From Candidatus Eiseniibacteriota bacterium (lineage in GTDB: Bacteria > Eisenbacteria > RBG-16-71-46 > CAIMUX01 > WJJG01), in NCBI GenBank assembly GCA_023129715.1, contig JAGMBO010000019.1:1-64000 (forward strand): DNA of 64,000 nucleotides, in the 5' to 3' direction. Positions 3,701-32,354 of this stretch are shown piece after piece (within the stretch, counting starts at the first letter, position 1; each line of letters opens with the position of its first letter). Under the pieces are notes generated by a model. That model was not told where the DNA came from, searched no databases, and worked only from the letters and a program-made list of their open reading frames with translations. A program made the position numbers and the translations under genes.

Positions 3701-4107
3701 AGAGCTTCACGGTTGGCGAGGATGATGGGGGGCTGCTTGTGCGTCCGGAGGTTGCAATCCGGCAGCTCGAGGCGGAGGCGCCGCCTCCGGTAGACGCGGG
3801 AGGAGAGAAGGGCAGGGAGGACGAGCGAACACCACCTGTTCCCCCTGTTGTTCCGCCTGTCGAGAAACGAAGGCCTAGGCGCTACTACGGCACAGTGACA
3901 TTAGATCCTGAGCGGACTGGCCGCGATGCGGGCAAGATCGCCGAGGAAGTTGTCGCGCATCTGGTTGGCCTTGTGGGGTCGAAGGTGCGAGTGACCCTGG
4001 AGATCCAAGCGGAGATCCCTGACGGCGTTCCCGAGCACGTTGAGCGGACAGTCACGGAAAACAGCATGGCGCTCAAGTTCGAGAGCCATGGGTTCGAGAT
4101 GGACTGA
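793..4107 (+). CDS. HEPN (Swt1-like) plus DUF499 ATPase, defence-associated
   Basis: This 1104-residue protein has two parts. Residues 1-150 look like the Swt1-type HEPN domain, with the RX4H motif RNKWAH at about 94-99, the signature of metal-independent HEPN RNases. The rest is a DUF499 P-loop ATPase: Walker A NFGGGKTHSM at about 245-254 and Walker B LVLIDEW at about 357-363. A proline and charged linker at about 990-1035 leads to a short C-terminal domain. The start ATG lies 3 bases after the methylase stop. DUF499 proteins occur with DUF1156 methylases in anti-phage loci; the role here, ATP-powered remodelling or sensing with possible RNA cleavage, is inferred. The usual third partner, DUF3780, is not seen downstream. 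Confidence 0.82.
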   Translation: MAITNHERVGKALELLKTGLGPFVEREFNSHFKGQGQAEALHYMGEDRLLQGKLITQWDAMALLKLMWNSWNDVFRNTLGQSERTLVSELRDHRNKWAHQQTFSSDDTDRALDSTERLLTAVSAPQADEVRKMKTELRRLIFDEQVRTERRKSAGGTIESAAVGNLKPWREVVTPHKDVASGKYQQAEFAADLWQVHLGEGTDEYRDPVEFFGRTFLTESLRRLLVGAVNRISGQGGDPVVQLQTNFGGGKTHSMLALYHLFSGTAPTELPGIDGVLAEAGAEKLSTARRVVLVGNKISPGNPVKKPDGTVVRTLWGELAYQLGGKKAFERLQADDENATSPGDALRELLNDYGPCLVLIDEWVAYARQLHEQSDLPAGSFGTQFTFAQALTESARAAKKCLLVISLPASDTSGSPHTQADDVEVGGERGREALSRLRNVVGRLEASWRPATAEEGFEIVRRRLFEPLAGQQQFTERDVVAKAFGDLYRTQHQEFPPECRTGDYEKRIKAAYPIHPEVFDRLYSDWSTLVKFQRTRGVLRLMASVIHSLWEKGDRNPLILPANIPIDDQRVQFELTRYLSDNWLPILEKDIDGPNSLPLRLDGEVPSLGKFAACRRVARTIYLGSAPTGAAAHRGLEDRRVKLGCVMPGESPAVFGDALRRLASTATYLYQDGPRYWYSTQPTVTKLAEDRAEQLSRDPDKVAQEIGRRLRADLRQAGDFARIHPLPSSSADVPDDLDARLVVLGIEHAYSKEPDSAAEATAKLILETRGNAPRLYRNTLVFLAVDRTRLQDLDEAVRKYLAWESITAEKEVLDLSPHQVKQAETQKTAADSVVMARVPEAYQWLLIPTQANPQATVGWQAIRLSGQDGLAARASKRLKSEELLVTRFAPSRLRMELDRVPLWRENHVAIRQLVEDFAKYLYLPRLRDPSVLLGAIQDGFGLLTWEQDSFAYAEAHDGEADRYRGLRAKESFTVGEDDGGLLVRPEVAIRQLEAEAPPPVDAGGEKGREDERTPPVPPVVPPVEKRRPRRYYGTVTLDPERTGRDAGKIAEEVVAHLVGLVGSKVRVTLEIQAEIPDGVPEHVERTVTENSMALKFESHGFEMD

Positions 4108-4481: not shown

Positions 4482-5093
4482 ATGCCTCAACCAGCTATAA
4501 ATAAATTAGTTAGCCGGATCTATGGGAACGGTAGGGGTTGGGCGTTTTCCCAAAAGGATTTCAGTGGCCTGGGGACCCGCTCGGCAATCGACGTTTCCCT
4601 GCACCGGCTTCATGAGAAGGGGACGATCCGGCGCGTCCTGCGGGGCATCTACGACTATCCCCAGGTGAGCGAGAAACTCGGCCGGCAACTCAGTCCCGAC
4701 ATCGACCAAGTGGCACGGGCCCTGGCACGGAAATCCGGCTGGCGAATCCAACCCACGGGACCGGCGGCGCTGAACCTCCTGGGCCTCTCCACGCAGGTGA
4801 TGGGGCGCTACGCCTACCTCTCCGACGGCCCGGATCGGGTCTACGCGATCGGGAAGCGAACGATCGAGTTCCAGCACACGGCGCTCAAGGAGTCCGGCTT
4901 CAAGTTGCGGGAGAGCTCCCTGGTCGTGCAGGCGCTCCGGTCTCTCGGGGAGGAGCGCATCGACGAGAGTACGATCTCGAAGCTTCGCGACTTCCTCGGG
5001 CCGGACCTGTGCACCAAGGTCCTGAAAGACACGCGAACCGCCAGGGGATGGGTGCACGACACGATTCTGGCGATCTGCCGGGAGGTGCGGTGA
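4482..5093 (+). CDS. AbiEi-type antitoxin / transcriptional repressor (DUF6088-like)
   Basis: This 203-residue protein has an N-terminal winged helix (about 15-60, including RSAIDVSLHRLHEKG and a GIYDYP wing). A middle region follows with the TGPAALNLLGLSTQ motif seen in AbiEi/DUF6088 proteins. It should neutralise the toxin encoded next and repress the operon through the inverted repeat just upstream. The ATG is preceded by AGAGG. Its TGA overlaps the ATG of the next gene (sequence TGATG), so the pair is translationally coupled, as is usual for type IV AbiE systems. Abortive-infection or plasmid-stabilising function is inferred from the family. Confidence 0.85.
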   Translation: MPQPAINKLVSRIYGNGRGWAFSQKDFSGLGTRSAIDVSLHRLHEKGTIRRVLRGIYDYPQVSEKLGRQLSPDIDQVARALARKSGWRIQPTGPAALNLLGLSTQVMGRYAYLSDGPDRVYAIGKRTIEFQHTALKESGFKLRESSLVVQALRSLGEERIDESTISKLRDFLGPDLCTKVLKDTRTARGWVHDTILAICREVR

Positions 5094-6079
5094 TGGACCG
5101 GATCGCCTCCTGGTCCGATACCGACCGCGCCGATCTGGTACGCGAGACGGCGGCAGTCAAGAACATGGCGCCGGCGGTCGTAGAGAAGGATTTCTGGGTC
5201 TGCTGGGTGCTCGATAAGCTGTTCGGCTCGGATCCGATGGGCAGGAAGATCCTCTTCAAGGGTGGGACATCCCTTTCCAAGGTCTTCGGGCTGATCGAAC
5301 GATTCTCCGAGGACATCGACCTGATCCTGGATTGGGATGAGGTCTCGACAGAGGACCCCATGGCGGCCAGATCCGTCTCCAAGCAGGACGCGTTCAACAA
5401 GAAGCTGCTCTGCGATACGCACGACTATCTTGGGAGAATATTCCTCCCCGAGGTGGAAGTCCTGATCGGCGGTACGTGCCGGGCTGCGATCGAGGAGAAC
5501 CCCGAGGTTGTGAAGATCGGATATCCCGCCGCCTTCTCCAGCGACTACCTCAGGCCGGAGATCCAGTTGGAAGTCGGGTGCCTGGCCTCCTGGGTCCCGA
5601 ACGAGGAATATGAGATCACACCCTATGCCGCCGAGGCGCTTCCTCAGGCCTTCGAGCGGTCGGCTGTCCGCGTGAGAGCGATCAAGGCCGAGCGGACCTT
5701 CTGGGAGAAGGTCACGATCCTGCATCATGAGGCCCACCGGCCCCAGGGGAGGTTACAGCCCAAGGGGTATTCGAGGCACTACTACGATGTCTGCCGCATG
5801 AGCCAGTCGCCTGTGAAGGGGGCTGCATTCCTTGATCTTGAGTTGCTGAGGAATGTCGTTGCGTTCAAGGACAAGTTCTATCACCGGGGCTGGGCCCAGT
5901 ATGACCTGGCCGTGCCGGGCAGCATGAGACTCGTTCCTCCGGAGTATGTGAGACGAGCCCTGGAGAGCGACTATGCCGAAATGCGCTTCATGATCTACGG
6001 TGACGTCCCGGCGTTCAGCGACCTGATGGAGTCTATTCAACAGCCGGAGGTTGAAATCAATCAACTGCCCAAGCCATAG
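5093..6079 (+). CDS. AbiEii-type nucleotidyltransferase toxin
   Basis: The 328-residue product belongs to the AbiEii/AbiGii nucleotidyltransferase family. It carries the signatures KGGTSLSK (about 52-59) and SEDIDLILD (about 69-77), which form the nucleotide-binding loop and the catalytic Asp pair, plus the C-terminal ERTFWEK and KGYSRHYYDV segments typical of the family. AbiEii enzymes transfer nucleotides to RNA targets and stop growth. The start was placed at 5093 because that ATG overlaps the antitoxin stop; a longer frame beginning at 5009 lies inside the antitoxin gene. Length and motifs are intact, so the toxin is probably functional. Confidence 0.87.
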   Translation: MDRIASWSDTDRADLVRETAAVKNMAPAVVEKDFWVCWVLDKLFGSDPMGRKILFKGGTSLSKVFGLIERFSEDIDLILDWDEVSTEDPMAARSVSKQDAFNKKLLCDTHDYLGRIFLPEVEVLIGGTCRAAIEENPEVVKIGYPAAFSSDYLRPEIQLEVGCLASWVPNEEYEITPYAAEALPQAFERSAVRVRAIKAERTFWEKVTILHHEAHRPQGRLQPKGYSRHYYDVCRMSQSPVKGAAFLDLELLRNVVAFKDKFYHRGWAQYDLAVPGSMRLVPPEYVRRALESDYAEMRFMIYGDVPAFSDLMESIQQPEVEINQLPKP

Positions 6080-7421: not shown

Positions 7422-8975
7422 ATGAAACCGAAGAAGACATTGCTGACCTTCGTCGGGTTCCATGACCCATACTCCATCGGACTTGTGGAGGGAGAAGAAC
7501 AGCCCGGTCCGATCCTCTCGCTGCTCGGGGAACGGGCCTTTGACCGCGTGATCCTCTTCGACACGCCTCAGACGGGATCGCAGACCGCCGCGACACACGA
7601 GGCCATCGGGGCCCGGTTTCCAGATCTCCATGTCGAGGTTCGGGACATCCCCTTGGAAGACCCCATCGACTATCTTGCTATCCTGGGTAACTTGAGAACC
7701 CATCTCCGTGGTTTGTGCAGCGAGGACCCCCAGCCCGACTGCACCATCTCGGTCACCTCCGGGACGCCTCAGATGCATGCCTGCTGGTTCCTGCTGGCGG
7801 CTGCGGGAGAGATCCCTGCCCGGATCGTCAATGTCCGCCCACCGCGCTATGTCACCCAGGAGCGTCCGCTCGTGACCGAAGTTGATGTCGGGCGTCCGGA
7901 GTTCCCCCAAGTGCGGGCCGGGGCCGGATGGCTGGCCGAGGATGTGATGGAGGGGGGACCACACGGCGAGCCAGGCTCAGCAGTTGATGAACTGATCGAT
8001 CCGGTCGAGGCTATCCGCAAGCTCAAGATCGTCGGCGATCATCCCCGCATGCGCCGGGCGCTTGAGATTGCGTCCGCCCTGGCGCCCTCGGGTGCACCGG
8101 TCCTGATCCTCGGACAGACGGGAACCGGCAAGGAGCTCATCGCGCGTCTCGTTCATCTCCTCAGCGGGCGTCCTCACGAGCGGTTCCTGCCGGTCAATTG
8201 CGGGGCGATCCCGAAGGAGTTGGCCGAGAGCCTGCTCTTCGGTCACAAGAAGGGCGCCTTTACCGGCGCTCACCAGGATCAGGTCGGCAAGTTCATCCAG
8301 GCTGATGGCGGCACGCTGTTCCTGGACGACATCGGAGAGCTGCCGGCCTCCACACAGGCGAAGCTGCTGCGCGTCCTGCAGGATGGTCAGGTGGAGCCGA
8401 TCGGCGCCGCACAGAGCCAGCAGGTGGATGTTCGGGTGGTGGCGGCGACGAACCGGGATCTGGGGGTGGCGATCCCCGCCGGCGATTTCCGTGAGGATCT
8501 CTACTACCGCCTGGCGGTCGGGGTGATCGAGCTGCCCGCCTTGCGGGAGCGACCCAGCGACATCCCCAAGCTTGCCCTGCACGTTCTCGATCGGATCAAT
8601 GGAACGCTGCGGTATCCCAAGCGCCTCTCGGTCGAGGCCCTCCAGCGACTGCAGACCCACAGCTGGCCAGGCAATGTGCGGGCGTTGGAGAATGTGTTGG
8701 AACGCTCGGCGAGGCTCTGCCGGAAGGCCGTTCTCGATGCCGATGATCTCCTGATCGACGATCCGGTGTCGCGAGAGGATCCTCTCTCCGGGCTCCCGGC
8801 GCCGTATGAGGGGTTTTCCTTGGAGGACTTCCTCCGGCAAGCCCGCAAGCATCTGTTGCTGGAGGCGCTCGACCAGACCGACGGGAATCAGAGTGCGGCA
8901 GCGCGACTGTTGGGGGTCAGCCCACAGGCGGTTCACAAGTTCCTGAAGACCTCGGAAGCTGAGGGAGCCGACTGA
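7422..8975 (+). CDS. CARF-domain sigma-54-dependent activator (RtcR-like)
   Basis: This 517-residue protein has three modules. Residues about 5-165 resemble the CARF domain of RtcR, with the ligand-loop signature SVTSGTPQMHA near 107-117. Residues about 185-420 are the sigma-54 AAA+ domain: Walker A GQTGTGKE near 230, the sigma-54 contact loop GAFTGA near 279 and Walker B TLFLDDIGEL near 299. A Fis-type helix-turn-helix (GNQSAAARLLGVS) near 487-500 ends the protein. CARF domains bind cyclic or linear oligonucleotides or RNA ends, so ligand-controlled transcription is expected. No rtcA or rtcB RNA-repair genes are nearby; neighbours are a barrel protein and defence-like genes. The ligand is unknown. 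Confidence 0.88.
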   Translation: MKPKKTLLTFVGFHDPYSIGLVEGEEQPGPILSLLGERAFDRVILFDTPQTGSQTAATHEAIGARFPDLHVEVRDIPLEDPIDYLAILGNLRTHLRGLCSEDPQPDCTISVTSGTPQMHACWFLLAAAGEIPARIVNVRPPRYVTQERPLVTEVDVGRPEFPQVRAGAGWLAEDVMEGGPHGEPGSAVDELIDPVEAIRKLKIVGDHPRMRRALEIASALAPSGAPVLILGQTGTGKELIARLVHLLSGRPHERFLPVNCGAIPKELAESLLFGHKKGAFTGAHQDQVGKFIQADGGTLFLDDIGELPASTQAKLLRVLQDGQVEPIGAAQSQQVDVRVVAATNRDLGVAIPAGDFREDLYYRLAVGVIELPALRERPSDIPKLALHVLDRINGTLRYPKRLSVEALQRLQTHSWPGNVRALENVLERSARLCRKAVLDADDLLIDDPVSREDPLSGLPAPYEGFSLEDFLRQARKHLLLEALDQTDGNQSAAARLLGVSPQAVHKFLKTSEAEGAD

Positions 8976-10462: not shown

Positions 10463-11797
10463 ATGGCCCAATCCACCATCTCCATCCCCTTCCTCACCCT
10501 CGAAGATCCCAATGCCAAGATCAAGGGCTCCCGAGACCCCCTCGGCATCGTACCGATCTGGTCGGCCTTCGGCCGGCATGTCGTCACCAATGTGATCTCG
10601 GTCAGCACCTCGGTTCGGGGCTTCACGGTCCTGCTTCTGGGACGCTACTTCTCCGGCCGGCTGATCGAGGAGAGGATCGTCCCGCGCGAGGAGGCACTGA
10701 ATATCGTCCTTCGGATGGAGCAGGCCGGTGCCTATGCCCGCTACGTCGGCCATCGCGCTGAGCGAGACATCCGGGGGATCGAACGGGTCAAACGCTTCCT
10801 GGATGATGGCAAGGGCAAGGTCCACATCCAATCGGATCCGCGGGGTTTCATCCTGGCCGATCAGAAGGTCTACGGGCTCTGGGGTCTCTATACTGTCGCC
10901 GCCCGGCGCTCCGGATGGCTTCCCGACCTGCCCCTCGGCGTGCTCAGCCCCGCCCGGGAGTTCATCGAGAAGCACTACATTGCCCCGCTGGATGCCGCGG
11001 TCGCCCCGCTGATGCGGCTCCTCGCTCGTGGGGGCGTGCTGGACACGCGCAAGGGGGGTGACGCGGTTTTCAAGGGAGTCGTCCGCATCCTCCCTGAGAC
11101 CTTCTCGCCGGCAGAAGTCGCGTTCTATGGCGGCTATCTGCGCGACAGCCTCGGTAACCACGACGGGACACTGAGCGAGGGCACCGAGGGCAAGCACGGA
11201 CGTCAGGCCCGCTTCCGCCCCCTCTTGGAAGAGCACACCGACCTCGATCAACCCGTGAACCGCGATGAGATCCTGGCGCTGGCCAAGGCGGCCCGGCTGA
11301 CCGACGAGGGCCTCTCACACGCCCTGTGGCGCATCGCGCACTTGGAAGCTCTTCTAGCGCCGGCCACAGCCCTCTTCGACTTCGTCTCCACCCGCAATGG
11401 GCAGACACCGAGCGAGATCGCCGGCGAGATGCGGAAGCGCTGGGGCGAGGCGGTCCCCAATCTGGACGGGGTAGCCTTCCAGGATCTCCTCGCCGAGATT
11501 GCCGAGGTCTCCAATCAGGGCATCGCGACGGTCATGCACCGAACTCACCGGGCGCTGGCCAGCGGAGACTACGAGGAGGCCGTGCGAGCGATCCTCGAGT
11601 GGAACAAGGGAGTCCAAGAGGGTCGCAAGGGAGGTCCCTGGATCGTCCTGACCGACGCAGGACGCACCGATGTGCGCTATCGCGGCATGGATCAGTTTCT
11701 GCCCGAGAAAGAAGAGCTTCCCACGCTCTGGCGGAACTCCTACTTCATCGACGCGATCAAGAGCATCACGAAGCAACTGAGGAGGACCGCGCCGTGA
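10463..11797 (+). CDS. uncharacterised protein, first gene of the PLD/SNF2 trio
   Basis: I do not recognise this 444-residue soluble protein with certainty. The N-terminal stretch RDPLGIVPIW, then AFGRHVV and VRGFTVLLLGRYF, faintly recalls DUF6361-type proteins found beside PLD nucleases and helicases; this is a weak impression. No signal peptide, membrane span or P-loop is seen. The C-terminal region is helical and acidic to mixed. Its TGA overlaps the GTG start of the PLD gene, and that gene overlaps the helicase gene, so all three proteins should be made in fixed proportion and probably act together. The start ATG at 10463 has only a weak upstream purine stretch. Confidence 0.7.
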   Translation: MAQSTISIPFLTLEDPNAKIKGSRDPLGIVPIWSAFGRHVVTNVISVSTSVRGFTVLLLGRYFSGRLIEERIVPREEALNIVLRMEQAGAYARYVGHRAERDIRGIERVKRFLDDGKGKVHIQSDPRGFILADQKVYGLWGLYTVAARRSGWLPDLPLGVLSPAREFIEKHYIAPLDAAVAPLMRLLARGGVLDTRKGGDAVFKGVVRILPETFSPAEVAFYGGYLRDSLGNHDGTLSEGTEGKHGRQARFRPLLEEHTDLDQPVNRDEILALAKAARLTDEGLSHALWRIAHLEALLAPATALFDFVSTRNGQTPSEIAGEMRKRWGEAVPNLDGVAFQDLLAEIAEVSNQGIATVMHRTHRALASGDYEEAVRAILEWNKGVQEGRKGGPWIVLTDAGRTDVRYRGMDQFLPEKEELPTLWRNSYFIDAIKSITKQLRRTAP

Positions 11798-13902
11798 GTT
11801 CACAGGGCCGGGTCCCGGTCGCGGTTCTCTCCCAGAGGCTGAGCGAGGCGATCGCCGGCCGCCGGGTGCGCGTGGCGGCGTTCACGACCTTTACCTTCGA
11901 TCCCGCCTTCTTCGAGCTGCACGTTCTGCCCACGCTCTTCGATCAGAGCTTCAGTCAGATCGACAAGGTCCGCCGCATCCAGCTCGAGGATGCGATGCGG
12001 GCAGTCGATCAGATCGCCGTCTACTACGATCGAAGCGCCCTGTCCCAGGATGGCGAACCCGCGCAGCTCGACTACCGGCGGATCGATGTCCGTCGGGCAA
12101 CCGGCTGCTTTCACCCCAAGCTCGTTCTCCTGCTCGTTGACGATCCGACCGGGGCCGAGGAGGGCGATGATTTCCCGACAAGTTACCCGAGTCTCATCGT
12201 CGGGATCCTCTCAGCCAATCTGACGCGTGCGGGATGGTGGGAGAGCGTCGAATGCGCCCACTTCGAGGAGGTCAAGGATCGAGACTGGCGGGATGTGCGT
12301 CTCGGCGAGCGCTCGCGGCCTCGGCGGTGTCCCTTCCGGCGCGATCTGCTGCATCTGCTCAGGCGCGTCTCTGCAACGGTCGACCCCGGAGAGGATGAGT
12401 CCGCGATCGAGCGCATCCGCGACTTCCTGCGCCGTCGCACCATCCGGCGGCAGTTCAGGCACTCGAGCTCTAGCGGTGTGTTCCACACGCGGATCTTCGG
12501 CGGCGGCGGCAGGGCCCCGCTGGCCCAGTGGCTCGGCAATCTACGGCTGTATCAGGGCTGGAACCTCGAGGTGATCTCGCCCTTCTTCAGCAGCACCGGT
12601 GCGGGTCCCTTGGTTGACCTCAAGGATGTCCTGGAACCGAAGGAGATCCGTGTCTATCTCCCCCGAGATGCCGATGGGTCCGCGCTGGTGACGCCGCAAA
12701 CCTATGATGCGATCGCTGAGCTTGCCAATGTTTCCTGGGGTGAACTGCAGCCGGAGCTCATCGCCCGCGGCCGGGATCAGTCCTCGAAGAAGCTGGCTCC
12801 CCGAGGCGTCCACGCGAAGGTCTACCGGCTCTGGCATCGGGATGGGGGCGATCTGCTCCTGGTCGGTTCGGTCAACTTGACCGAGAGTGCCCACAGTGCC
12901 GCGCATGCGGGCAACCTCGAGGCGGCCTTCCTGGTCGATGTGAGTGAGGCGGGCATCCCGCGGCGCTGGTGGCTCGAGCGGCGTGAGGAGCGGCCGAGTG
13001 AGTTCCTGAAGGAAGAGCGTTCCGAGGAGGATGGGCTCCAGCAAGCCGTTCTGAACTTGGGCCTGCGGTTCGATTGGGCTGCGGGAGAACTTAGCTATCG
13101 CCTGATGGAGAAGGGGAGTCGCGGCTTCCAGGTGCGAGATACAACCGGGGGCCTGCTCTTTGAGATTTCCGATCCCCGGTCAGGGCGGTGGACCCCCTGT
13201 CCCAAAGAGGCGGCGGAGAAGGTGCGGAAGCTCCTGGTCGGAACGAGTTTCGTCCTCATCCAGCACCCCAAGGGCCAGTGGCGGGTGCTGATCCGCGAAG
13301 AGAACATGGCCTATCGGCCGTCTCTGCTCACGCTGCTCACTCCCGAGGAGATCCTCGAGTACTGGTCGTTGCTGACGCCGGATCAGCGGGCAGTCTTTTT
13401 CGAGGAGCACGGGCGTGATGACGGCGTCGGGATCGTTGATCCAGTCATTGGTCCCGAGCCGCCCGACATCGGCGCCAAACGCAACACCATCTTCGACCGC
13501 TTCGGCGGGATCTACCACGCCTTCAACTGCCTCCACCGGCACGTCTGCACGGCGATCGATGAGGGTCGGGAGCGGGATGCGGAGGCGCGACTGCTCGGGG
13601 CCAAGTACGACTCGCTGCCCTCCCTGCTCGAGAAGTCCCTGGCGCGAAAGAAGGAAGACCCGATCATCCGCTACGTGACCTTCCTGTGTGCGAAGCAAAC
13701 CTGGAAGCTGGTTGCAACCGAGCACCGTGAGTTCATGCGTCGGCACAGAAAGCAGGTTCACCGCCTGGAGAGTCTGCTGAGGAAACTGCCTGAGGTCCGA
13801 GGTCGCCTTCCTCATGACTGCATCGAGGGCGGCCAGGATTTCATCGTCTGGTACGAGCGGGCATTCCTGAGACAGGCGGTGCCGGAGGAGACAGACGCGT
13901 GA
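11794..13902 (+). CDS. phospholipase-D-like nuclease/phosphodiesterase with two HKD-type motifs
   Basis: The 702-residue protein has two PLD half-sites. The first is FHPKLVLLLV near residue 105 with SANLTRAGW near 140. The second is VHAKVYRLW near 338 with VGSVNLTESAHS near 355-366. The paired HxK and downstream Asn/Ser/Glu elements are those of PLD-superfamily nucleases. The GTG at 11794 is chosen as start because it overlaps the preceding stop and has GGAGGA 9 bases upstream; the open frame reaches back to 11326 but there lies inside the previous gene. The C-terminal 300 residues have no recognised domain. It overlaps the helicase gene by 4 bases. In defence loci such proteins cut nucleic acid together with a helicase; that role is inferred here. 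Confidence 0.82.
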   Translation: MSSQGRVPVAVLSQRLSEAIAGRRVRVAAFTTFTFDPAFFELHVLPTLFDQSFSQIDKVRRIQLEDAMRAVDQIAVYYDRSALSQDGEPAQLDYRRIDVRRATGCFHPKLVLLLVDDPTGAEEGDDFPTSYPSLIVGILSANLTRAGWWESVECAHFEEVKDRDWRDVRLGERSRPRRCPFRRDLLHLLRRVSATVDPGEDESAIERIRDFLRRRTIRRQFRHSSSSGVFHTRIFGGGGRAPLAQWLGNLRLYQGWNLEVISPFFSSTGAGPLVDLKDVLEPKEIRVYLPRDADGSALVTPQTYDAIAELANVSWGELQPELIARGRDQSSKKLAPRGVHAKVYRLWHRDGGDLLLVGSVNLTESAHSAAHAGNLEAAFLVDVSEAGIPRRWWLERREERPSEFLKEERSEEDGLQQAVLNLGLRFDWAAGELSYRLMEKGSRGFQVRDTTGGLLFEISDPRSGRWTPCPKEAAEKVRKLLVGTSFVLIQHPKGQWRVLIREENMAYRPSLLTLLTPEEILEYWSLLTPDQRAVFFEEHGRDDGVGIVDPVIGPEPPDIGAKRNTIFDRFGGIYHAFNCLHRHVCTAIDEGRERDAEARLLGAKYDSLPSLLEKSLARKKEDPIIRYVTFLCAKQTWKLVATEHREFMRRHRKQVHRLESLLRKLPEVRGRLPHDCIEGGQDFIVWYERAFLRQAVPEETDA

Positions 13903-16900
13903 GATCGGACTCGATGGGCAGCGTGCTCTCGCCAGGTCAGATGGAGAAGCCCATCCAGAGGCGATCGAACGAGAGCCTGGACGGGATGCCTTTCATCATG
14001 TCCGACTTCGTACGCGGCCTGATCGACTTTGCCCCCACGGAGGAGACGAAGCGCCTAGGATTCGCCGAGAATCAACTCGAGGGTACGGTCGCGCTCTTCA
14101 ACATGCTGGCCCGCAACCGGTGTGCCTATCTGGCGGACGAGGTGGGCATGGGCAAGACCTATGTCGCCCTCGCGGTCATGAGCCTCGTCCGCTACTTCAA
14201 ACCCGATGCGCGCATCGTCGTCATTGCGCCGCGCGAGAACATCCAGCGCAAGTGGGTCAAGGAGCTCAGCAACTTCGTCCGCTTGAACTGGACGCTGGTC
14301 GGGAGCCGGGTCAAGTCCCTCCAAGGCGGTCCTGTCTGGGAGCCGGTTCTCTGTCGCTCGCTGCTCGACTTCGCCCACCAGGCGATCCTGAACGACGACC
14401 GGGATTTCTTCCTGCGCATGACGAGCTTCAGTCTCGCCCTGAAGCGAGTCGAGAACCGCCGGCGGCTACGCAGGGAGTTGCGGCGGCTGATTCCCTGGCT
14501 GAGCCGGCATACGGTCTCACCGAAGACGCCCGAGGGGTTCCGCGATGCCTTTGGCTGTGCGCTCAATGCCGCGATTCCCGAGGCGGATCTGGTCGTCGTG
14601 GATGAGGGACACAACCTGAAGCACGGCTTCCGCGAGAAGGGCAGCATTCGCAACCGCATCATGGGTTTTGCGTTTGGTCATCCAGCGGGGGCTTCTCCCG
14701 AGCGTCCTTGGTATGGATCGAGGGTCAAGCGGCTGCTCCTGCTCTCGGCGACCCCGTTCGAGGAAGAGTACGCGGCCATCCACCGGCAGTTCTCCGTTTT
14801 CGGGTTCGGGAATGTTCCCCTGCACGATGCCAAGGGAGGCGCCACCGTCCGCCTGAGTGACCTCGAGGATCGCGAGCTGAGCGATCATGCCAAACGCGAG
14901 ATCGTCGGGCGGCTCATGGTGCGGCGCGTCTCGGGCTTGCGGATCGCAGGGAAGCTGTGGACCAAGAACATGTATCGCCGCGAGTGGCGGATGGGCGGGT
15001 ACCAGGTCCACGACGACCCCATGCGGCTCGATGATCCCAAGCAGCGGCTGATTGTGGCGCTCATGCAGAAGAAGGTCGCCGAGATCCTGCAGAGCGAGAA
15101 GTTCAACAACCACTTCCAGATCGGCATGCTCTCCTCCTTCGAGAGCTTCCTCGAGAGCGTCGAGACGGCGAGGAAGAGCAAGGCAAGGAAGGAGCAAGAG
15201 AAGAAGGAGCAGGAGAAGGCGGCCGGAGCCGCCGGTGAGGTTCCCATCAGCGAGATGGAGAGCAGTGGTAATGGGGCGGGGGATGCTGAGGAAGAAGGTG
15301 CCAGACGAGTCTTCGATGGCCGGCAGAAGGCCAGTGCCCGCGAGCGGAAAGGCATCGACACCGCCGCGATCGCCAGTGTTGTCGAATCCTATCGCCGGCA
15401 GTTCGGCGCGAGCCTTCCGCATCCGAAGCTCGACGCCACCGCGCATGCCCTGGCGAGTGTGTTCGATTCAGGCGAGAAGACGCTCGTTTTCGTTCGGCGC
15501 GTCGCGACTGTCCGTGAGTTAGCCGCAAAGCTCGATGCGGAGTTCGATACTTGGCTCCTGCGCCACATGGAGCGATCCTTGCCTGAGAGGCTGCATCCGG
15601 AGCTGGCCAAGCTATTCGTTGCCTACGAGGGTGAGCGGCGGGCCCGTCCGGAGGAACGCTTCGAACGTCTCAGCCTCGACACACGAGAGCGGGATCCGCA
15701 CGATCTCCAGGATGAACGGCACTTCGTCGAGGAAGAGGATGCGGGGAGCGCGGAGACTTTCTTTGCCTGGTTCTTCCGCGGTACGGGGCCTGAGGATGTC
15801 CTCTCTGGGGCAGCCTTCCAGAAGAACCGCCTCTCGAGCGTCGGGTCGCTGTATTCGACTCTGTTCGAGGACGATCACGTCTCCTGGCTCCTGGGCAGGC
15901 CGGCGGATCCGTTGGCGGCGCTATGCGCTGCGGGTGGCGAGCGTCCCAAGCGGTTCCTTCCCGCCCTGCGTGAGCGGGCTTTCCGGCACTTCCAAGCACG
16001 GAGTCAGCAGCGGGAACGCTATCCGCGGCTCTTTGTCTTCCAGTGCTATCAGGTCGCGGCGCTCGAGATGCTGGCCGCGCGGCACGACGACCTGGGCGAG
16101 AAGGCCCGGATTGTTCTGGAAGAGCGCCATCCGGGCCTTTCCGTGCCCCGCGATCGATCCGAGCTCCCGGCGGGATTCCCCGGGCCGCAGGAGGCGATCG
16201 GGATCACCACGTTCATCACGGAGCTCGCCCGGCGCCCGCGACTTCGCGAAGCCCTGTGGCCTGCGGGGAACGATCCCGACTTCCGCGCGCGCTTCAGGTG
16301 CCGGGAGCAGCGCCGGGAGTTACTGAGCGGAATGGCGCGGCTGGGCTCGGCGTATGTCGATCTCTACTGCACGGCGATGAGTCCGCTGGAATCGTTTGGG
16401 CTGCGCAGTCAGACGGAGACGGCGCGATCAGACACAGACCTAGCCCAACGGTTCGCCGATCTGCTGGAGAAGCAGCAGGACACTCCGGGTTTCCACACGT
16501 TCCGGGAGCTGTCCGAGGCGGCCGCCAACTTCAACCTCCTGATCGGAGTCAACTTCCCCGAGGTGCCGCACGCACGACTCCATGAGCTCGCCGCGATCTA
16601 CGGGGCCACCCTGCAGCGACAATCCCCGGTGGGTCACATGTCGGGTGGGGTCAACAAGCGTCTCGTGCGGCAGTTCAGGATGCCCGGGTTTCCCTTGGCG
16701 CTGATCACGACGGATGTGCTGCAGGAAGGGGAGGATCTCCACACGTTCTGCCGGCGGGTCGTGCACTATGGGATCAGCTGGACGCCCTCGGCCATGGAGC
16801 AGCGCACGGGGCGCGTCGATCGGATCGGCAGTCTTGTGCAGCGCAGGCTGGATGGCAGTCCAATCATCCCTGATCCGGACGAGTGGCTCCAGGTGTTCTA

Positions 16901-18149
16901 CCCGCATCTCCGCGACACAGTAGAGGTCCTGCAGGTCCGGCGAGTTCTGCGACGGCTGAACCGCTTCCTGCGGCTGATCACCAAGACCGTCGGGCAGGAT
17001 GAGGATCGAGACAGCCGAATCGACGTCACCCGGGAGTTCCTCGATGAGCTTGAAGCCGTGGCGCCCGTGAAAGAGCCGCTGGAGTCGGCGTTCCCGGTGG
17101 GAGGGGCGTGGCTTCGTGGGAGGCTCGGGGCTGGTGATGTGCCCCAATCGAGCGAGCCAGTTCTGGAGAGCCACCTCGAGCGGCTGTGGGAAGGGTTGGC
17201 GAAGCGGTATGCCGTCGAGGGGCAGCGGGATGCTCGGCCCTATTCTCATACGGGTCTCGCGTATCTGGCTGATTCCGGGATCGCAAGGCGGGAGGAGTTG
17301 CCCCCGGGTGCGGTGGCATCCGAGGAGGATCGACAGCATTGGAAGCGATTCCGGATCTTCTTGCGCTCTCAGGCTGCCGGAGCTGCCGCGCTTCTGCGAT
17401 GCAAGAGTCATGTCGGCAAGGTGAACTTGCGCGACGACAAGACCCTCGATTGTCTCTATGACCTTCAGCGTGATCTGGGGCAGGTGAAGGTCTGCGCCAA
17501 TCGGAGCGAGCGCGATCGCGAGGACATGATCAGCGTCGAGGGGGACATTCTCTTCGATCCCAAGACGACGGATCCGGAGGAGTTGGAGACGCTCGTCTCC
17601 CGAGTGGCCTATGCGGCCGCGGCCCTGCGCGTGGGGCTCGAGTTCGATGTGGAGCCATCCGGCCGGCGCCTCTCTGCGGTGAAACATGCGTGGGCGCGGG
17701 AATCATCCGAGGTCGGACTGGTCCAGAAGATGGCTGACGATCTGATCGCCCTTGGTGCCGTTCAATGGGAGCGGAAGGGACGCGTGATCCGTGCGCAGAT
17801 CGGGCGCTTCAAGCGGTTCCAACCGACGGGGTCGACCCCGATCGACCGTTGGCAGGATGTCGAGATCGCCCGGCGAGGGGAGATCTGCATCCTCCGGTCG
17901 GTCGTCGTGAGACCGAAGTTCGTGACCCGCAATCATGCCCATTGGCGACGGTTGGCCTATCGCGTGTGGCGCAAGAATGCGGAGAAGGACCTGGTGGCTT
18001 TCGCCTTCGATCGCGGGGATCGGCTTATTGGGCTGATCGAGCAGCCCCTTGCGACGCTGGCGCCCGAGGAGCTGAGCTTCTACGTCGAGACGGTGGCCAA
18101 GGAGTGCGACCGGTTCGAGTATGTGTTGACGGGGGAGGATGTGGGATAG
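13899..18149 (+). CDS. giant SNF2-family helicase/translocase with long insert
   Basis: This 1416-residue protein is an SF2/SNF2 ATPase. Walker A ADEVGMGKT lies near 79-87, the DEGH box VVVDEGHN near 231, motif III LLSATPFEEEY near 280, and motifs V-VI (LQEGEDLHTF, then QRTGRVDRIGS) near 948-972. About 600 residues separate the two RecA lobes; this insert begins with a Lys/Glu-rich coiled segment near 425-470. Helicases of this layout (including DISARM DrmD-like and other defence helicases) pair with PLD nucleases. The start ATG lies within the last codons of the PLD gene, showing tight coupling. About 400 residues after motif VI are unassigned. Translocation on DNA or RNA is expected; the target is unknown. 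Confidence 0.85.
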   Translation: MRSDSMGSVLSPGQMEKPIQRRSNESLDGMPFIMSDFVRGLIDFAPTEETKRLGFAENQLEGTVALFNMLARNRCAYLADEVGMGKTYVALAVMSLVRYFKPDARIVVIAPRENIQRKWVKELSNFVRLNWTLVGSRVKSLQGGPVWEPVLCRSLLDFAHQAILNDDRDFFLRMTSFSLALKRVENRRRLRRELRRLIPWLSRHTVSPKTPEGFRDAFGCALNAAIPEADLVVVDEGHNLKHGFREKGSIRNRIMGFAFGHPAGASPERPWYGSRVKRLLLLSATPFEEEYAAIHRQFSVFGFGNVPLHDAKGGATVRLSDLEDRELSDHAKREIVGRLMVRRVSGLRIAGKLWTKNMYRREWRMGGYQVHDDPMRLDDPKQRLIVALMQKKVAEILQSEKFNNHFQIGMLSSFESFLESVETARKSKARKEQEKKEQEKAAGAAGEVPISEMESSGNGAGDAEEEGARRVFDGRQKASARERKGIDTAAIASVVESYRRQFGASLPHPKLDATAHALASVFDSGEKTLVFVRRVATVRELAAKLDAEFDTWLLRHMERSLPERLHPELAKLFVAYEGERRARPEERFERLSLDTRERDPHDLQDERHFVEEEDAGSAETFFAWFFRGTGPEDVLSGAAFQKNRLSSVGSLYSTLFEDDHVSWLLGRPADPLAALCAAGGERPKRFLPALRERAFRHFQARSQQRERYPRLFVFQCYQVAALEMLAARHDDLGEKARIVLEERHPGLSVPRDRSELPAGFPGPQEAIGITTFITELARRPRLREALWPAGNDPDFRARFRCREQRRELLSGMARLGSAYVDLYCTAMSPLESFGLRSQTETARSDTDLAQRFADLLEKQQDTPGFHTFRELSEAAANFNLLIGVNFPEVPHARLHELAAIYGATLQRQSPVGHMSGGVNKRLVRQFRMPGFPLALITTDVLQEGEDLHTFCRRVVHYGISWTPSAMEQRTGRVDRIGSLVQRRLDGSPIIPDPDEWLQVFYPHLRDTVEVLQVRRVLRRLNRFLRLITKTVGQDEDRDSRIDVTREFLDELEAVAPVKEPLESAFPVGGAWLRGRLGAGDVPQSSEPVLESHLERLWEGLAKRYAVEGQRDARPYSHTGLAYLADSGIARREELPPGAVASEEDRQHWKRFRIFLRSQAAGAAALLRCKSHVGKVNLRDDKTLDCLYDLQRDLGQVKVCANRSERDREDMISVEGDILFDPKTTDPEELETLVSRVAYAAAALRVGLEFDVEPSGRRLSAVKHAWARESSEVGLVQKMADDLIALGAVQWERKGRVIRAQIGRFKRFQPTGSTPIDRWQDVEIARRGEICILRSVVVRPKFVTRNHAHWRRLAYRVWRKNAEKDLVAFAFDRGDRLIGLIEQPLATLAPEELSFYVETVAKECDRFEYVLTGEDVG

Positions 18150-18210
18150 GTATCATGTCGACACCGCATCGCGCGCACGATCGCTAGTTCTGTCGGAAGG
18201 AGGTCGAGAC

Positions 18211-20292
18211 GTGCGTGACGCTACAGTCTCCCCTGAGACGAGACTAGCGTCTGGTCGTTCCATGACGTCCCCAGCGGTCATTCTCAAAGCCGTCTTGCTC
18301 GCGGCAATGCTGCTCCAGTCAGGCTACATGGGCGTGGCCATCGCGGACCACTATGGCAAGTGGCGTCCCTTGCCAGATGATGCCTGGATCATCCCCGCCG
18401 GAGTAGATGACGGTACATGCCACGCCGTGATTCTTCGCAACGACTACATGATTGACGATCGCGACCGGAACTTCCAGAAATGTGAGGTGAGTCGCTACTT
18501 CAGCGTCCGGTGCCTCGATGCCGAGGGTATCGAGGAGTTCGGAACGGTAGAGCTTCCCTTTCATAAGGACGTCCGCATCAAGAAGATCGGGGCACGCACG
18601 ATCAAGCCGGATGGGCGGATCATTGAGATCGGCAAGAAGTCCTTCTACGACAAGACTGTTTTTGAGGTTGGTCGAGAAGCCGCATACCTGCGAGTTTTTG
18701 CCTACGAGGGGCTAGAGGCAGGAGATATCGTCGAGTATTTCTGTGCCTGGGAAGTGCCCTTCGGCGCGGCCCCCATGATCCAACTCCAACATCGATACTA
18801 CACTCGGCGGACGACTTTGCTGTGGCACTTCTGGCGCCTCAACAGGGTCGACGAACGCGCTGCCGCTCGAGCAGGCATCCCGCTTCCCAAGCCCGCGTGG
18901 GTCATCACGAACACTGGGAGCTTGCAGGGTGTGGTTGAGCAGCAGCCGTCTGCAAGCAGGGCGGAGCGTCTCTGGGTTAGCTACGCCGACATTCCGCCAG
19001 TTCCAGCTGAGCCGTACATGCCACCCGAAATGGCGGTTGCTGCTCGCTTCATCCGATACTACTCACAGCCGGGACTAGATAGCAGAGCGGAATTCTGGGA
19101 GCAGGCTGCGGGATTCCTGGGAGGGCTGAGCCGGCAGTTCTTGAAGGACGACGAGCATCTTCGCGACTGGATGTTGCTCTTGCGCAATTGCCCCAGAGAT
19201 CTGGAGAGAGATCTTCAAGCTTGCATGCAGCAACTCCAGAGGTCGATCGAATGCCTCTCCGGCATTGCCGCAATGGAGCGGGCCGAAGAGCTCAAGAAGA
19301 TCAGTGGAGTCAGGGATCTGCTCAAGAAGCGCTTTGGGGACGCCCTGATGATCAGCAGGCTCGCAGCAGGCATGCTGCGCGAGCTTGGCTATGAAACCAC
19401 GTTGTTCTGGACATGCGATCGTTCTAAGACGCTCTTCGTCGATCATTGGCAGTCCACAAGTCAGTTCAACATGGTAGGCGTGGCCGTTCGGGACGCGGAT
19501 TCGTTGCGGTGGTGGTATCCTTCGGTTCACACGGCCGGAACGAGCGAGCTTCCCTGGCAGATACGCGGATGCACTGCGCTTCTTGAGGATTGGTCCGGAG
19601 AGGACCATTCTAATCCTTTCGAGATCTTCTCTGTCATTCCCATGCGGGGTTCAGCTGCCAATTCCTGTTCGCTGCACGCTACGCTGAGCCTTGATTCGAC
19701 CGGAGCTGCGGTCGGTGCGATTCGGAGTCGGATGTCGTGGCCGAACGATCCGATCCTGGCTCAAGAGCTTCTGGCGAAGACTGACAAAGAGGTCGCTTCC
19801 GCGCTGCGCGAGATCGCGCTCCCAGCGCGCCTACCCTTGCGGTCTTGGGCTGAGAGTTGCTCGGTCGAGGGAACCACGTTTCTGTACGCGTGCAGTCTCA
19901 GCTTGAGCGGCATGACAGAGCATGCCGGGGAGCGCCTGCTACTGAGCGTGGGGACTCTGCACGGCGATGATCTCCATCTGCCCCCTGCGGAGCGAGAGAC
20001 TGAGATCTGGCTGCCCTATCAGCGAGCGGACTTTGTCAGACTCTCTATCTGCATGCCGACAGGGTACCAGGCCGCCTCCCTGGCGCCGTATCGCTCTTTC
20101 AAAGAAGCAGTTGGAAGCTACTGGTCTCAATGCAGCCTCCATGGAGACAGCCTCTGCTGGTCTCGTAAGCTGAGCCTCGACTACAACCTGTTCCAGAAGA
20201 GCGCATCGGGAGTCCTTCGGGCATTCTTCGCGAGGGTCAACGAGGCTGATGCACGTCCGATCGTCCTCGAGACACTAGAGCCCGGTCAATAG
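18211..20292 (+). CDS. exported DUF3857/transglutaminase-like protein lacking the catalytic Cys
   Basis: I start this 693-residue protein at the GTG at 18211, 8 bases after a strong GGAAGGAGG site; ATG 18262 is the alternative, immediately before the hydrophobic signal segment VILKAVLLAAMLL. The N-terminal half fits DUF3857 (VRIKKIGARTIKPDGR, YEGLEAGDIVEYFC). The region where transglutaminase-like relatives have a GDCKD active-site loop here reads RFGDALMIS near residues 372-380, so the nucleophile Cys is replaced. The C-terminal third is beta-rich. The next gene is a paralogue that keeps the loop. A structural or binding role outside the inner membrane is inferred. Confidence 0.7.
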   Translation: MRDATVSPETRLASGRSMTSPAVILKAVLLAAMLLQSGYMGVAIADHYGKWRPLPDDAWIIPAGVDDGTCHAVILRNDYMIDDRDRNFQKCEVSRYFSVRCLDAEGIEEFGTVELPFHKDVRIKKIGARTIKPDGRIIEIGKKSFYDKTVFEVGREAAYLRVFAYEGLEAGDIVEYFCAWEVPFGAAPMIQLQHRYYTRRTTLLWHFWRLNRVDERAAARAGIPLPKPAWVITNTGSLQGVVEQQPSASRAERLWVSYADIPPVPAEPYMPPEMAVAARFIRYYSQPGLDSRAEFWEQAAGFLGGLSRQFLKDDEHLRDWMLLLRNCPRDLERDLQACMQQLQRSIECLSGIAAMERAEELKKISGVRDLLKKRFGDALMISRLAAGMLRELGYETTLFWTCDRSKTLFVDHWQSTSQFNMVGVAVRDADSLRWWYPSVHTAGTSELPWQIRGCTALLEDWSGEDHSNPFEIFSVIPMRGSAANSCSLHATLSLDSTGAAVGAIRSRMSWPNDPILAQELLAKTDKEVASALREIALPARLPLRSWAESCSVEGTTFLYACSLSLSGMTEHAGERLLLSVGTLHGDDLHLPPAERETEIWLPYQRADFVRLSICMPTGYQAASLAPYRSFKEAVGSYWSQCSLHGDSLCWSRKLSLDYNLFQKSASGVLRAFFARVNEADARPIVLETLEPGQ

Positions 20293-20321
20293 ACGACTGC
20301 GGGAGCTGTAGCGGAGAGAAA

Positions 20322-22253
20322 ATGCGACTTGTGAGGACTATAGCTGCCCTCTGTCTTGGACTGAGCATATGCGCATCCGGAGTGGCACGGGCCGGCCCTC
20401 CTGACTGGCTACGCGAAGTCTGCGACATGGGAGACGAGGGTCTGTTCCCCGACCAGGCGGTGATCGAAGCCTACCGCTGTGAGAGTGTTGAAGTAGAGCG
20501 GTCAGGCAAACGGCGCGTCACGCAACGACGCGTTCTCTTCGTACGGTCAGGGGATGGCTCCCCGCATGATGTTCAGGTCTTCCACGAGGGATTCGGGCGG
20601 CGGCTCGCGAAGATGGTTGCATGGCGCGGAACATGTGGCGGGGGTTTCGAGAAGACGAAAGACCGGATGAAGACCCAGATCATGGGTGGAGAGCTCTTCA
20701 GCGATCACATGCAATACATCCAGAGGGTCCCGGACGGCCCCGGGACGGTGTTCGCCTTCGAACTCCGCTATGAGGAAAAGATCTCGGGTCTCAATGCGGA
20801 TCGTGCATCCCTGTGCGGGGCGGTCCCACTGGTGCAGTGGGAGTATCATCTCAAAGTGCCGTCGGGTTGGTCCGTGGAATCTCAGCTGACGTGTGGCGAA
20901 AAGCTAGAGGACTTCGCACCTTCCACGGTGGTTTCCGATCGGGAGTACGTGTGGACCGCGCGGGATGTGGTTGCGCCAGCGCACGAGGAGAGTTGGGCCC
21001 CTCCGCCGCAGGCATCCACTCCTGTCATCCATGTGCGCTGGTTCGATCCGCAGCGACAGGATGATTCTCGCGCGGATTGGAATCATGTTGGTGGATGGTA
21101 TCTTGACTTCGGTGAAGACGCTCTTGTGGCAACTGAAGGCATCGCGGAGTTGGCCGGGGGATTCGTGACCGAGTGTGAGTCGCTGGCATGTCGAGCGAAA
21201 CACGTGGCCGATCTAGTGCAGCAACAGATCCACTATGTCCAAGTCTATCGCGAGGACGGAGCTTGGAGGCCCCATCGACCCGCTGAGGTCTATGCGTCTC
21301 GCTACGGAGACTGCAAGGACATGAGCTACCTGATGGTGGTCCTACTGCGCGAAGCGGGGCTCGATGCCTATCCCGTGTTGACGAGCGCCGGGCCATTCGA
21401 TCCCGTCCACCCCGAGTGCCCGATTCCGAGCTTCAATCATTGCATCGTAGGTGTGTCATCACTAGGAGGGCCGAGCGGCTGTCTCTTCTTCGATCCGACG
21501 TGCAAACACGTTCCTCTCGGGAGGCTGGCGGCGCAGCTTGAGGGGAGGTGGTCGTTGCCCCTTGAGGAGAACGCAATCAGGCTCCAGCGACTACCCGAAA
21601 GCTGTTCTGAATCCAATCAGCATCGGATCGTGGTGAATCTGCACTTGGATAAGGATATGGGGGGCGTGGCCGAGTGTCAGGAAGTGATGACCGGCCATCC
21701 TGCCTACTTCACGCGCTCGCGGGTCTCCGGTGAGGGGACTGCGGCCTTTCGCGAGACTATCCAAAGGCGACTTGCGCTCTCCGCTCCGCGGGCGCAACTC
21801 TCCGAATTCACGATCGATTACAGCGATGCCGCCTGCGAGAGCCTGAGAGTGGCTTATGCTGTGCGATACCGACAAGTGGGAACACGCATTGGCGAGGAGG
21901 CCTTCATTCCTGTCTCCCCACATCCTCGGGAGCCTCTGCCGCCGCTGCCGCCTGGCGAGCGCCTCAACGATGTCGTGTTTCCCTATGCGCGAGTTGTTGT
22001 GACCGATGTGCTCGTCACCTGGCCGGAGGAGTGGGAAGTGGTGGAGATCCCGCAGGATACCGTCTTCTCAAGTGACGATCTGGTCTTCTCCTTGAGTTAC
22101 CGGAAAACACAGAACGGAGTGCATCGCAGTGCACGGGAGGAGATCAGGAAGAGGCGGATTCCGGTGGCGCGCTATGATGACGTCGTCCAATGGAGCCACC
22201 TCATAGACGGATGCGACCGCCAGCGGATTGTGCTCAAGATGCGGGAGAGATGA
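20322..22253 (+). CDS. exported DUF3857/transglutaminase-like protein with intact triad
   Basis: The 643-residue product begins with a classical signal peptide (LVRTIAALCLGLSICASG, cleavage near ARA-GP). DUF3857 covers about residues 40-290, followed by a transglutaminase core: YGDCKDMSYLM near 328 supplies Cys, PSFNHCIVGV near 367 His, and FFDPTCKHVP near 390 Asp. Such proteins are periplasmic or surface proteins common in Bacteroidota and related phyla; enzyme activity has rarely been shown. It follows its inactive paralogue by 29 bases, so they are one operon and may form a pair. The C-terminal 200 residues form a beta-rich domain of unknown role. Confidence 0.8.
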   Translation: MRLVRTIAALCLGLSICASGVARAGPPDWLREVCDMGDEGLFPDQAVIEAYRCESVEVERSGKRRVTQRRVLFVRSGDGSPHDVQVFHEGFGRRLAKMVAWRGTCGGGFEKTKDRMKTQIMGGELFSDHMQYIQRVPDGPGTVFAFELRYEEKISGLNADRASLCGAVPLVQWEYHLKVPSGWSVESQLTCGEKLEDFAPSTVVSDREYVWTARDVVAPAHEESWAPPPQASTPVIHVRWFDPQRQDDSRADWNHVGGWYLDFGEDALVATEGIAELAGGFVTECESLACRAKHVADLVQQQIHYVQVYREDGAWRPHRPAEVYASRYGDCKDMSYLMVVLLREAGLDAYPVLTSAGPFDPVHPECPIPSFNHCIVGVSSLGGPSGCLFFDPTCKHVPLGRLAAQLEGRWSLPLEENAIRLQRLPESCSESNQHRIVVNLHLDKDMGGVAECQEVMTGHPAYFTRSRVSGEGTAAFRETIQRRLALSAPRAQLSEFTIDYSDAACESLRVAYAVRYRQVGTRIGEEAFIPVSPHPREPLPPLPPGERLNDVVFPYARVVVTDVLVTWPEEWEVVEIPQDTVFSSDDLVFSLSYRKTQNGVHRSAREEIRKRRIPVARYDDVVQWSHLIDGCDRQRIVLKMRER

Positions 22254-29800: not shown

Positions 29801-30047
29801 CGAAGGGGCAGGTGCAGGAGGGGAGGATCTCGTCGCCGTCGTACTCCAGATTGACCAGGTACGGTTCGCGGCGGGTTCCCTCGACGCGCGCCTCGAGCCG
29901 GCCATCTGTCTCGACGAGATCGGTCACCCGGCCCGCGCGAGCATAGACCAGACCGCGGCGGACAATCCGCTCGCTGGCCAGGTCGAAGAGATCGTGCTCG
30001 TCGAAATGAGTGCCATCCGGGATGAACTGTGGGGTAGCGGTTGCCAT
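26802..30047 (-). CDS. SWIM-zinc-finger SNF2-family helicase
   Basis: The 1081-residue protein has two SWIM-type zinc motifs, SCTCPFDWEPFCKHA near 77-91 and CTCLDFATCTLGTCKHVE near 190-207. A full SNF2 engine follows: Walker A DDMGLGKTVQ near 355, LDEAQRIRN near 452, VLTGTPLQNRLDDL near 478, STDAGGLGLNL near 700, and GRIHRHGQ near 736. The C-terminal 300 residues are rich in Ala, Glu and Pro and have no known fold. Such SWIM/SNF2 proteins are widespread in bacteria and are probably DNA translocases; a direct defence role is not established. It stands alone, and three 13-base repeats lie just upstream of its start. Confidence 0.88.
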   Translation of the reverse strand: MATATPQFIPDGTHFDEHDLFDLASERIVRRGLVYARAGRVTDLVETDGRLEARVEGTRREPYLVNLEYDGDEILPSCTCPFDWEPFCKHAIATLAVHLGWVDPVAGRPGSRVERSDFAADRPDSPAQRKGRLASLEQEEVEVRRRRGAKGGFKVIRRDAHDFFGTFEVRSPSEKAYEVEIRSLSTPVNQCTCLDFATCTLGTCKHVEAVLTALRRRSRRKFAKAAAQPPAVGQILVDRRDVPRIRLRLPPRPTPALAKLAHEHFDSEGYFRGDPVEDLPELLASARRLRKAVIYRDVVEFSGRVAAERRAARRKEEVSRQLLTAGGSIPGMQVDLYPFQVEGTAFLAASGRALLGDDMGLGKTVQAIAAARVLWDRGEIHRALVVCPASLKAQWASEIKRFTGIDCQIVGGGVAHRLAQYRRQAPFTIANYELVLRDRKGIRDLAPDLLILDEAQRIRNWRTKTAEAIKSIEIPYAFVLTGTPLQNRLDDLYSVMQIVDRRIMGPLWAYNESFVVRDEGKSRIRGYKNLDELRRRIAPTLLRRTKEEVRLQLPDRIDSRISVELTAKQMDLMQEAVATAARYAALAEKRPLSPVEEKRLFMAMQNARMACNAAGLVDKETVGSPKLDEFEQLIRDLCLDRGRKVIVFSEWEKFCRLAAQRAERLGIPFVRLHGGVPSAKRGALIERFRDDPECKIFFSTDAGGLGLNLQFVSTMIILELPWNPAVLDQRIGRIHRHGQTEPVNVLLLVSEDSFESGLEATLQSKRALFSAALDQSARESAVEAPSSCLAIVRAALLALESEEEPGEEPIIVDAGVAGAVPGKPPIEERDPQTAGKAATATEGGDSAPASGPADTPVEGTDPVRKIGDLLGPRLRRVVALSSGRTVALVDRVDRTTREAAAGLGIVVVEAQAVESLALLGEESPFASARVLLDRPAGRPDLQAERRRRLAVAARKLEAARTLAAAGLGAEAIAQGHACMTAALQAMTADATETEDLPSARLLYERLVPQGLLSLEQAALVSRADGLARAYSEATQPVPPGTVEAVLEDARGLLEHAAGLRGARPSAEGSARDRAALAGVPS

Positions 30048-31946: not shown

Positions 31947-32354
31947 GGGTGTCTGGCCAAACCAGAGGGTTTGCCTAGACAGCTGGCCTTGTCCCAGGAT
32001 GTCTGAAACGGGGGTCTCTACACGATAGGCACAACTGCCCGAAGCACTGGGTCAAGGAGGCGCCCGGGCCCCAGGCGCCAGCATGGAGATGAGCGCTCAA
32101 CTCCAAAATCTGATCTTGGAATTGACATGGCAAGGCCTAATCCCCATATTGCAAGCATGTTCCAGATACTCCTGACTCCCGCGCCGTAGACCGCCGCACC
32201 ATCCTCGCGTGGTTCCTGACATAGGAATCGGGAAGCCTGGTTCCGGGCGCGACGAGTGGATCCCGCGCCGAGGAGAGTCAGGGTTGAGCTCCAACGCAGA
32301 GCACAGGTTCAAGCCCACCCCTGCGGAGAGGTTCCGCAAGGCCAAGCTCACCGG
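31947..32354. other. gap before the TOTE gene
   Basis: No gene is visible in 408 bases. It holds the upstream side of the antitoxin cassette, possible outer boxes of a further degenerate cassette site (GCTCAAC at 32095-32101 and GTTGAGC near 32283) and the leader of the TOTE gene. I could not draw a convincing hairpin between those boxes. Confidence 0.4.

Follow-up and report, generated by a model that had tools for sequence, protein, structure and literature searches.

An operon encoding a PLD nuclease and an SNF2 helicase in Candidatus Eiseniibacteriota: a probable divergent member of PDC-M27 and distant relative of Azaca

The operon and its products

Three genes on the plus strand lie head to tail in the window, by which we mean the whole 64,000-nucleotide stretch of contig JAGMBO010000019.1 that was analysed. 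Gene A (10463..11797) starts with ATG and encodes 444 amino acids; gene B (11794..13902) encodes a PLD nuclease of 702 amino acids with two half-sites, belonging to the ZacB / PDC-M27B family; gene C (13899..18149) starts with GTG and encodes an SNF2-type helicase or translocase of 1416 amino acids, with a long insert and a YbjN-like C-terminal region. Neighbouring genes overlap by 4 nt (gtga) at both junctions, A/B at 11794-11797 and B/C at 13899-13902. A check of the open reading frames thus upheld the trio with four-base overlaps described in the earlier note on this DNA. The start of gene B was most likely the GTG at 11794, because homologues begin there, despite the reading frame being open upstream to 11326. 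Homologous operons from two further species in the family had the same coding frames, at 60-69% identity.

The protein encoded by gene A was modelled with high confidence by AlphaFold2 (AF2) as a nearly all-helical structure (pLDDT 92.8, pTM 0.89). It had no match in the Pfam profile search and no PHROG match to phage proteins, and a fold search of the model gave no significant match among PDB or viral structures. A sequence match to PDB 9hnh (4.6e-4) was set aside, as the fold search did not support it. The most conserved residues of A were D15, SRDPLG 23-28, W33, E86, G105, G138, R388, W393, and W423. Because they form no recognised catalytic motif, A is likely an adaptor or sensor and probably non-enzymatic, a role already suggested for the first protein of the trio.

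Two PLD half-sites had been noticed in B, and both were borne out: the first (plus strand, 12112..12252) comprises H107, K109, S140, N142, and E153, and the second (plus strand, 12811..12921) comprises H340, K342, G358-S359, N361, N374, and E376. The pattern HxK...N...E thus occurs twice. The H, K, S, N, and E positions did not vary across a diverse set of 37 homologues, unlike the aspartate of the classical HKD motif. The best solved relatives of B in profile matches were the restriction endonucleases BfiI (2c1l, 4.3e-8) and SauUSI (7clg, 2.6e-4). Intact half-sites and kinship with BfiI and SauUSI support reading B as a phosphodiesterase whose two halves share a single chain.

Protein C contains the Pfam domains SNF2-rel_dom and Helicase_C, and all six helicase motifs (I, II, III, IV, V, and VI) are intact, with catalytic residues nearly invariant among 69 homologues. 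In motif I (Walker A, DEVGMGKT; plus strand, 14136..14159), the residues D, E, V, G, G, K, and T were identical in 69/69; in motif II (Walker B, DEGH; plus strand, 14601..14612), D and E were present in 69/69; and the core residues of motifs V (TTDVLQEGEDLH) and VI (EQRTGRVDR), at 16707..16823 on the plus strand, were likewise invariant. Motif III (residue 283) and motif V (residue 937) are separated by about 650 residues, with motif IV at 529. The same spacing measured 446-661 residues (median 596) across the 69 homologues and about 570-615 residues in the Azaca helicase ZacC, so that the long insert is a feature of the family, common to ZacC. The helicase insert of some 600 residues in the earlier note was therefore broadly right, as measured from III to V, but the length of C owes something as well to a C-terminal fusion that had been missed.

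The fusion concerns a fourth component, here called D. The final ~145 residues of C (plus strand, 17706..18146) correspond to a small protein of relatives, as indicated by a census of fused and separate copies, the Pfam YbjN family, and Foldseek; the earlier note had overlooked this YbjN-like component. In the census, D was its own gene immediately downstream of C, often overlapping it, at 39 loci, and was fused to C at 19, making 58/81 loci examined with D beside or within C. It was undetected at 16 loci, mostly from divergent branches, and the remaining loci were cut. Since one divergent clade carries no detectable D, the component appears to be dispensable in some branches. Fusion of C and D was observed on several unrelated branches of the C tree (L023, L024, L030, the window, and a gammaproteobacterial clade), and such repeated fusion points to a joint function of C and D. 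Three loci of the fused gammaproteobacterial clade in which D scored as separate (L057, L063, and L080) were discounted, since draft-genome frameshifts may account for them.

The assignment of D to the YbjN/type III chaperone fold, new relative to both the catalogue entry for PDC-M27 and Azaca, draws on profile and structural evidence. Separate D proteins from two relatives matched Pfam YbjN (PF10722) above the gathering score of 22 bits (L040, 29.3 bits; L044, 23.6 bits); the D domain of the window scored 13 bits, below that cut-off. No PADLOC model matched D. An AF2 model of C residues 983-1416 had a mean pLDDT of 77, with the chaperone-like parts mostly above 80, and its Foldseek matches were CesT, ExsC, SycH, YbjN, and AmyR (probability ~1.0, E 0.002-0.05), a match to the chaperone fold that may lie in either of two C-terminal copies. 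The copy preceding D, domain 1 of C (plus strand, 17145..17699), is probably the first YbjN/T3SS-chaperone-like unit, judging from the topology of the AF2 model. Because the succession of helices and strands in domain 1 is that of D, to which it also has a weak profile match (E 0.0016), the two probably form a pseudo-dimer.

Affinity with PDC-M27 and Azaca

Assignment of the operon was made gene by gene, by matches to the HMMs of PADLOC-DB 2.0.0 (2023). The profile search proposed in the earlier note was run, and all three proteins matched the models of PDC-M27, a multi-gene phage defence candidate of PADLOC with the same gene set. Protein A matched PDC-M27A at 4.9e-20 (69.7 bits), through residues 256-439 plus an N-terminal stretch; the match was good only over the C-terminal half and a short N-terminal part, the copy in the window being divergent. 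The same model was matched by 41/41 A homologues tested. Protein B matched ZacB (2e-18, query residues 19-379) and PDC-M27B (2.9e-17), and C matched PDC-M27C (2.7e-70) far better than ZacC (1.8e-22). We therefore consider, with a probability of roughly 0.7, that the operon belongs to PDC-M27 as a divergent representative and is a distant cousin of Azaca, encoding a DNA-targeting complex of translocase and nuclease. The catalogue entry for PDC-M27 is without D, whereas the copy in the window and most of its relatives have D beside or fused to C.

This assignment overturned two statements made from the letters alone, that the first protein could not be assigned and that the system was a distinct one: A is PDC-M27A, and the trio was already catalogued as a candidate with a distant relative in Azaca. 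The trio is accordingly a named system, as a candidate, but not one with known activity, both of which had been raised together. PDC systems are candidates obtained by guilt-by-embedding and, according to PMC10855318 and PMC12988326, lack experimental validation. Neither PDC-M27 nor DUF6361 was mentioned by name in the accessible literature, which reported no activity of PDC-M27.

Published accounts count Azaca among the antiphage systems and give it a PLD-like domain and the helicase ZacC (PMC10952713; PMC12278908); according to PMC10952713, Azaca (ZacABC) was reported by Millman et al. 2022. Azaca loci recovered for comparison (L104-L107 and L122-L124) have the gene order ZacA-ZacB-ZacC, coupled as in the trio and with similar gene sizes. 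ZacB and ZacC are homologous to B and C, and the helicases share a similarly long insert. The systems differ in that ZacC ends soon after motif VI, without the YbjN-like region or D, and ZacA is DUF6361 (PF19888), whereas A has no Pfam match and only an indirect link to ZacA. The PADLOC ZacA model matched neither the A of the window nor 40 further A homologues, and direct homology between A and ZacA, at a non-significant hhalign E of 0.05, was replaced by an argument from an intermediate family. The intermediates, A-like proteins of ~520 aa (L108, L109, and L118-L121), have a PLD partner and apparently no helicase gene of their own. As a family they aligned with A at 5.6e-8 and with ZacA at 3.6e-5 (hhalign), both mainly via the N-terminal part, and two of them were matched by the PADLOC ZacA model (3e-5 and 6.6e-4). 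These matches on both sides link A to ZacA. We conclude that PDC-M27, Azaca, and the two-gene pairs have a common ancestor; for the A component our confidence in this is moderate. Azaca, proven but of obscure mechanism, and the PDC-M27 candidate would then be joined in a superfamily of adaptor, PLD nuclease, and SNF2 motor.

Four of the two-gene pairs were plasmid-borne, each consisting of the ~520-aa A-like protein and a ZacB-like PLD protein of ~800 aa (L118 6980-11040, L119 6971-11034, L120 6992-10878, and L121 6932-11049). No PADLOC system name fits them, and their neighbours included genes for type I restriction, Zorya, or AbiEii.

Among other known systems, DISARM likewise combines an SNF2 helicase (DrmD) with a PLD protein (DrmC). 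Protein C matched DrmD models at 1e-16, and the DrmC match of the trio was weak (0.024-0.055). Membership in DISARM was rejected: DrmA, DrmB, and the methyltransferase are absent, and scores fell far below the NCBIfam cut-offs (13 against 133 bits for DrmC; 60.8 against 610 bits for DrmD). The trio is flanked by a FlgT_M-like protein and a DUF3857/transglutaminase pair, with neither DrmA nor DrmB. Together with the defence-island context, the missing DrmA and DrmB and the low scores favour the view, already taken in the earlier note, of a nuclease-helicase defence module distinct from DISARM. The PLD active site of B is of the type found in the restriction endonucleases SauUSI and BfiI, and SauUSI resembles the trio further in pairing PLD with a helicase; B differs in holding both half-sites in one chain and in having, besides a separate SNF2 protein, two other partners. 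Hachiman (HamAB) follows a similar logic of nuclease plus helicase, but with other nuclease and helicase families and in two genes.

Predicted mode of action

The operon is likely a phage-defence system that would destroy invading DNA. In the sequence, the motor and the nuclease are intact, the linkage with A is fixed, and a chaperone-fold subunit is tied to the motor; the trigger, the formation of a complex, and the role of D we infer. In the scheme we propose, C would load on invading DNA, probably at an end, a fork, or an intermediate containing single-stranded DNA, and would use ATP to move or remodel the bound DNA. Protein A would bridge B and C and recognise the target or trigger. The YbjN-like pair, formed by domain 1 of C and D, may bind an extended peptide, either from a DNA-handling protein of phage or host or from A or B, and this binding would keep the nuclease off or license it; B would then cut the DNA. 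Because no methyltransferase was consistently linked to the operon, the host's own DNA is probably spared by a conditional trigger and not by base modification.

The nature of the peptide is suggested by precedents. In Deinococcus, the SSB-like protein DdrB is bound by DR1245, a member of the YbjN family (PMC3575483), and related chaperone domains are predicted in other conflict systems (PMC9503650), which makes SSB or another replication protein a reasonable candidate partner. In its most specific form, the proposal is that PDC-M27 is a four-subunit machine in which the YbjN/T3SS-chaperone-like pseudo-dimer traps a peptide of a phage replication protein (e.g. SSB), unlocking the PLD nuclease driven by the SNF2 motor; in that detail we hold it to be doubtful. 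Were it true, the DNA restriction engine would have a protein-sensing front end, and A would represent a new fold. Independently of that detail, D offers a concrete, testable idea of how such modification-free restriction systems could switch on, and cloning just the three catalogued genes from a genome with a separate D would omit the fourth.

The same parts list of sensor helicase, nuclease, and regulator, again with no consistently linked methyltransferase, would also serve abortive infection of the Hachiman kind, in which C would sense damaged DNA or ends, B would destroy all DNA of the cell, and the infected cell would die. There is precedent in the Hachiman helicase-nuclease complex, which destroys both host and phage DNA on sensing DNA damage (PMC12278908), and the peptide-binding YbjN pair could act as the lock. 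Protein B is of the BfiI/SauUSI restriction type, however, and not a HamA-type nuclease. We view abortive infection as a tentative alternative, somewhat unlikely on balance; conditional restriction and suicide are not separated by the sequence. An action against plasmids or conjugation instead of phages would draw on the same chemistry, and a paper cited in PMC12839542 has a title that calls SauUSI a barrier to horizontal gene transfer. No specific evidence pointed to such a target, and Azaca is catalogued as an antiphage system (PMC10952713; PMC10855318), so that we find this reading improbable.

Distribution and genomic neighbourhood

A scan of 84,980 genomes with the helicase profile yielded 78 loci, in Pseudomonadota, Planctomycetota, Acidobacteriota, Actinomycetota, Bacteroidota, Bacillota, Spirochaetota, Myxococcota, Chlorobiota, Gemmatimonadota, Campylobacterota, and others (>10 phyla in total). 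Order and strand were A-B-C in 71/71 loci where all three genes were found, an arrangement well beyond chance. Incomplete loci were mostly cut by contig ends; of the others, L070 carries a C gene that is broken, and in L082 a C gene begins but neither A nor B precedes it. A search anchored on A in 399 Pseudomonadota gave one strong match, with B and C adjacent there too, so that the scattering of single genes which the earlier note had thought might speak against a system was not what we found.

Within its own phylum, the trio was present in 3/47 searched genomes, all of one family. Phyla were intermixed in the C tree, and a homologous trio is carried by a Rhodoferax plasmid, as expected of a mobile defence module. 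A housekeeping or DNA-repair operon of the host, for which one could cite the cellular roles of RapA-like SNF2 proteins and the partnership of a YbjN protein with a DNA-repair SSB (PMC3575483), is very improbable given this patchiness (3/47, and 1/399 in Pseudomonadota), a tree of the kind produced by horizontal transfer, the plasmid-borne trio, and the defence-island context.

No neighbouring gene cluster, methyltransferases included, recurred in more than 8 of the trio loci. A UvrD-type helicase, often with a PD-(D/E)XK nuclease, adjoins eight of them (L030, L055, L057, L059, L061, L078, L080, and L019). The UvrD and PD-(D/E)XK pair also lies upstream of two Azaca plasmid loci (L122 and L124), and may be an accessory module shared by some loci of both systems.

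By its predicted gene content, the window is a defence island, with HmaC, AbiE, a CARF-type RtcR, a further SNF2 helicase, a TOTE primase-helicase, and PDC-S01. The HmaC-type protein (793-4107, 1155 bits), with an N-terminal Swt1-like HEPN domain and a DUF499 ATPase, is encoded at the very start of the contig, where partner genes would fall off. It is followed by an AbiE toxin-antitoxin pair (4482-6079; AbiEi/DUF6088 and AbiEii) and by an RtcR-like sigma-54 activator with a CARF domain (7422-8975; PADLOC RtcR_PspF2, 1.8e-133) that has no obvious target. Regulation of the trio by this activator was considered and found unsupported: no sigma-54 site near the trio scored above chance, a lipoprotein gene lies between, and the other loci gave no sign that linkage to RtcR is conserved. 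Directly after the trio is the DUF3857 and transglutaminase-like pair (18139-22253), the first gene of which overlaps the end of C; the pair is not defence-like. Further along are a large SNF2 helicase with a SWIM zinc finger (26802-30047, minus strand), relatives of which adjoin four other trio loci (L027, L028, L046, and L060), and a primase-helicase of the TOTE conflict systems (32256-34883; AEP-TOTE, 2e-99), with homologues near four other trio loci. An ATPase of the PDC-S01 family (AAA_14/DUF4143), another defence candidate, is encoded at 39021-40223.
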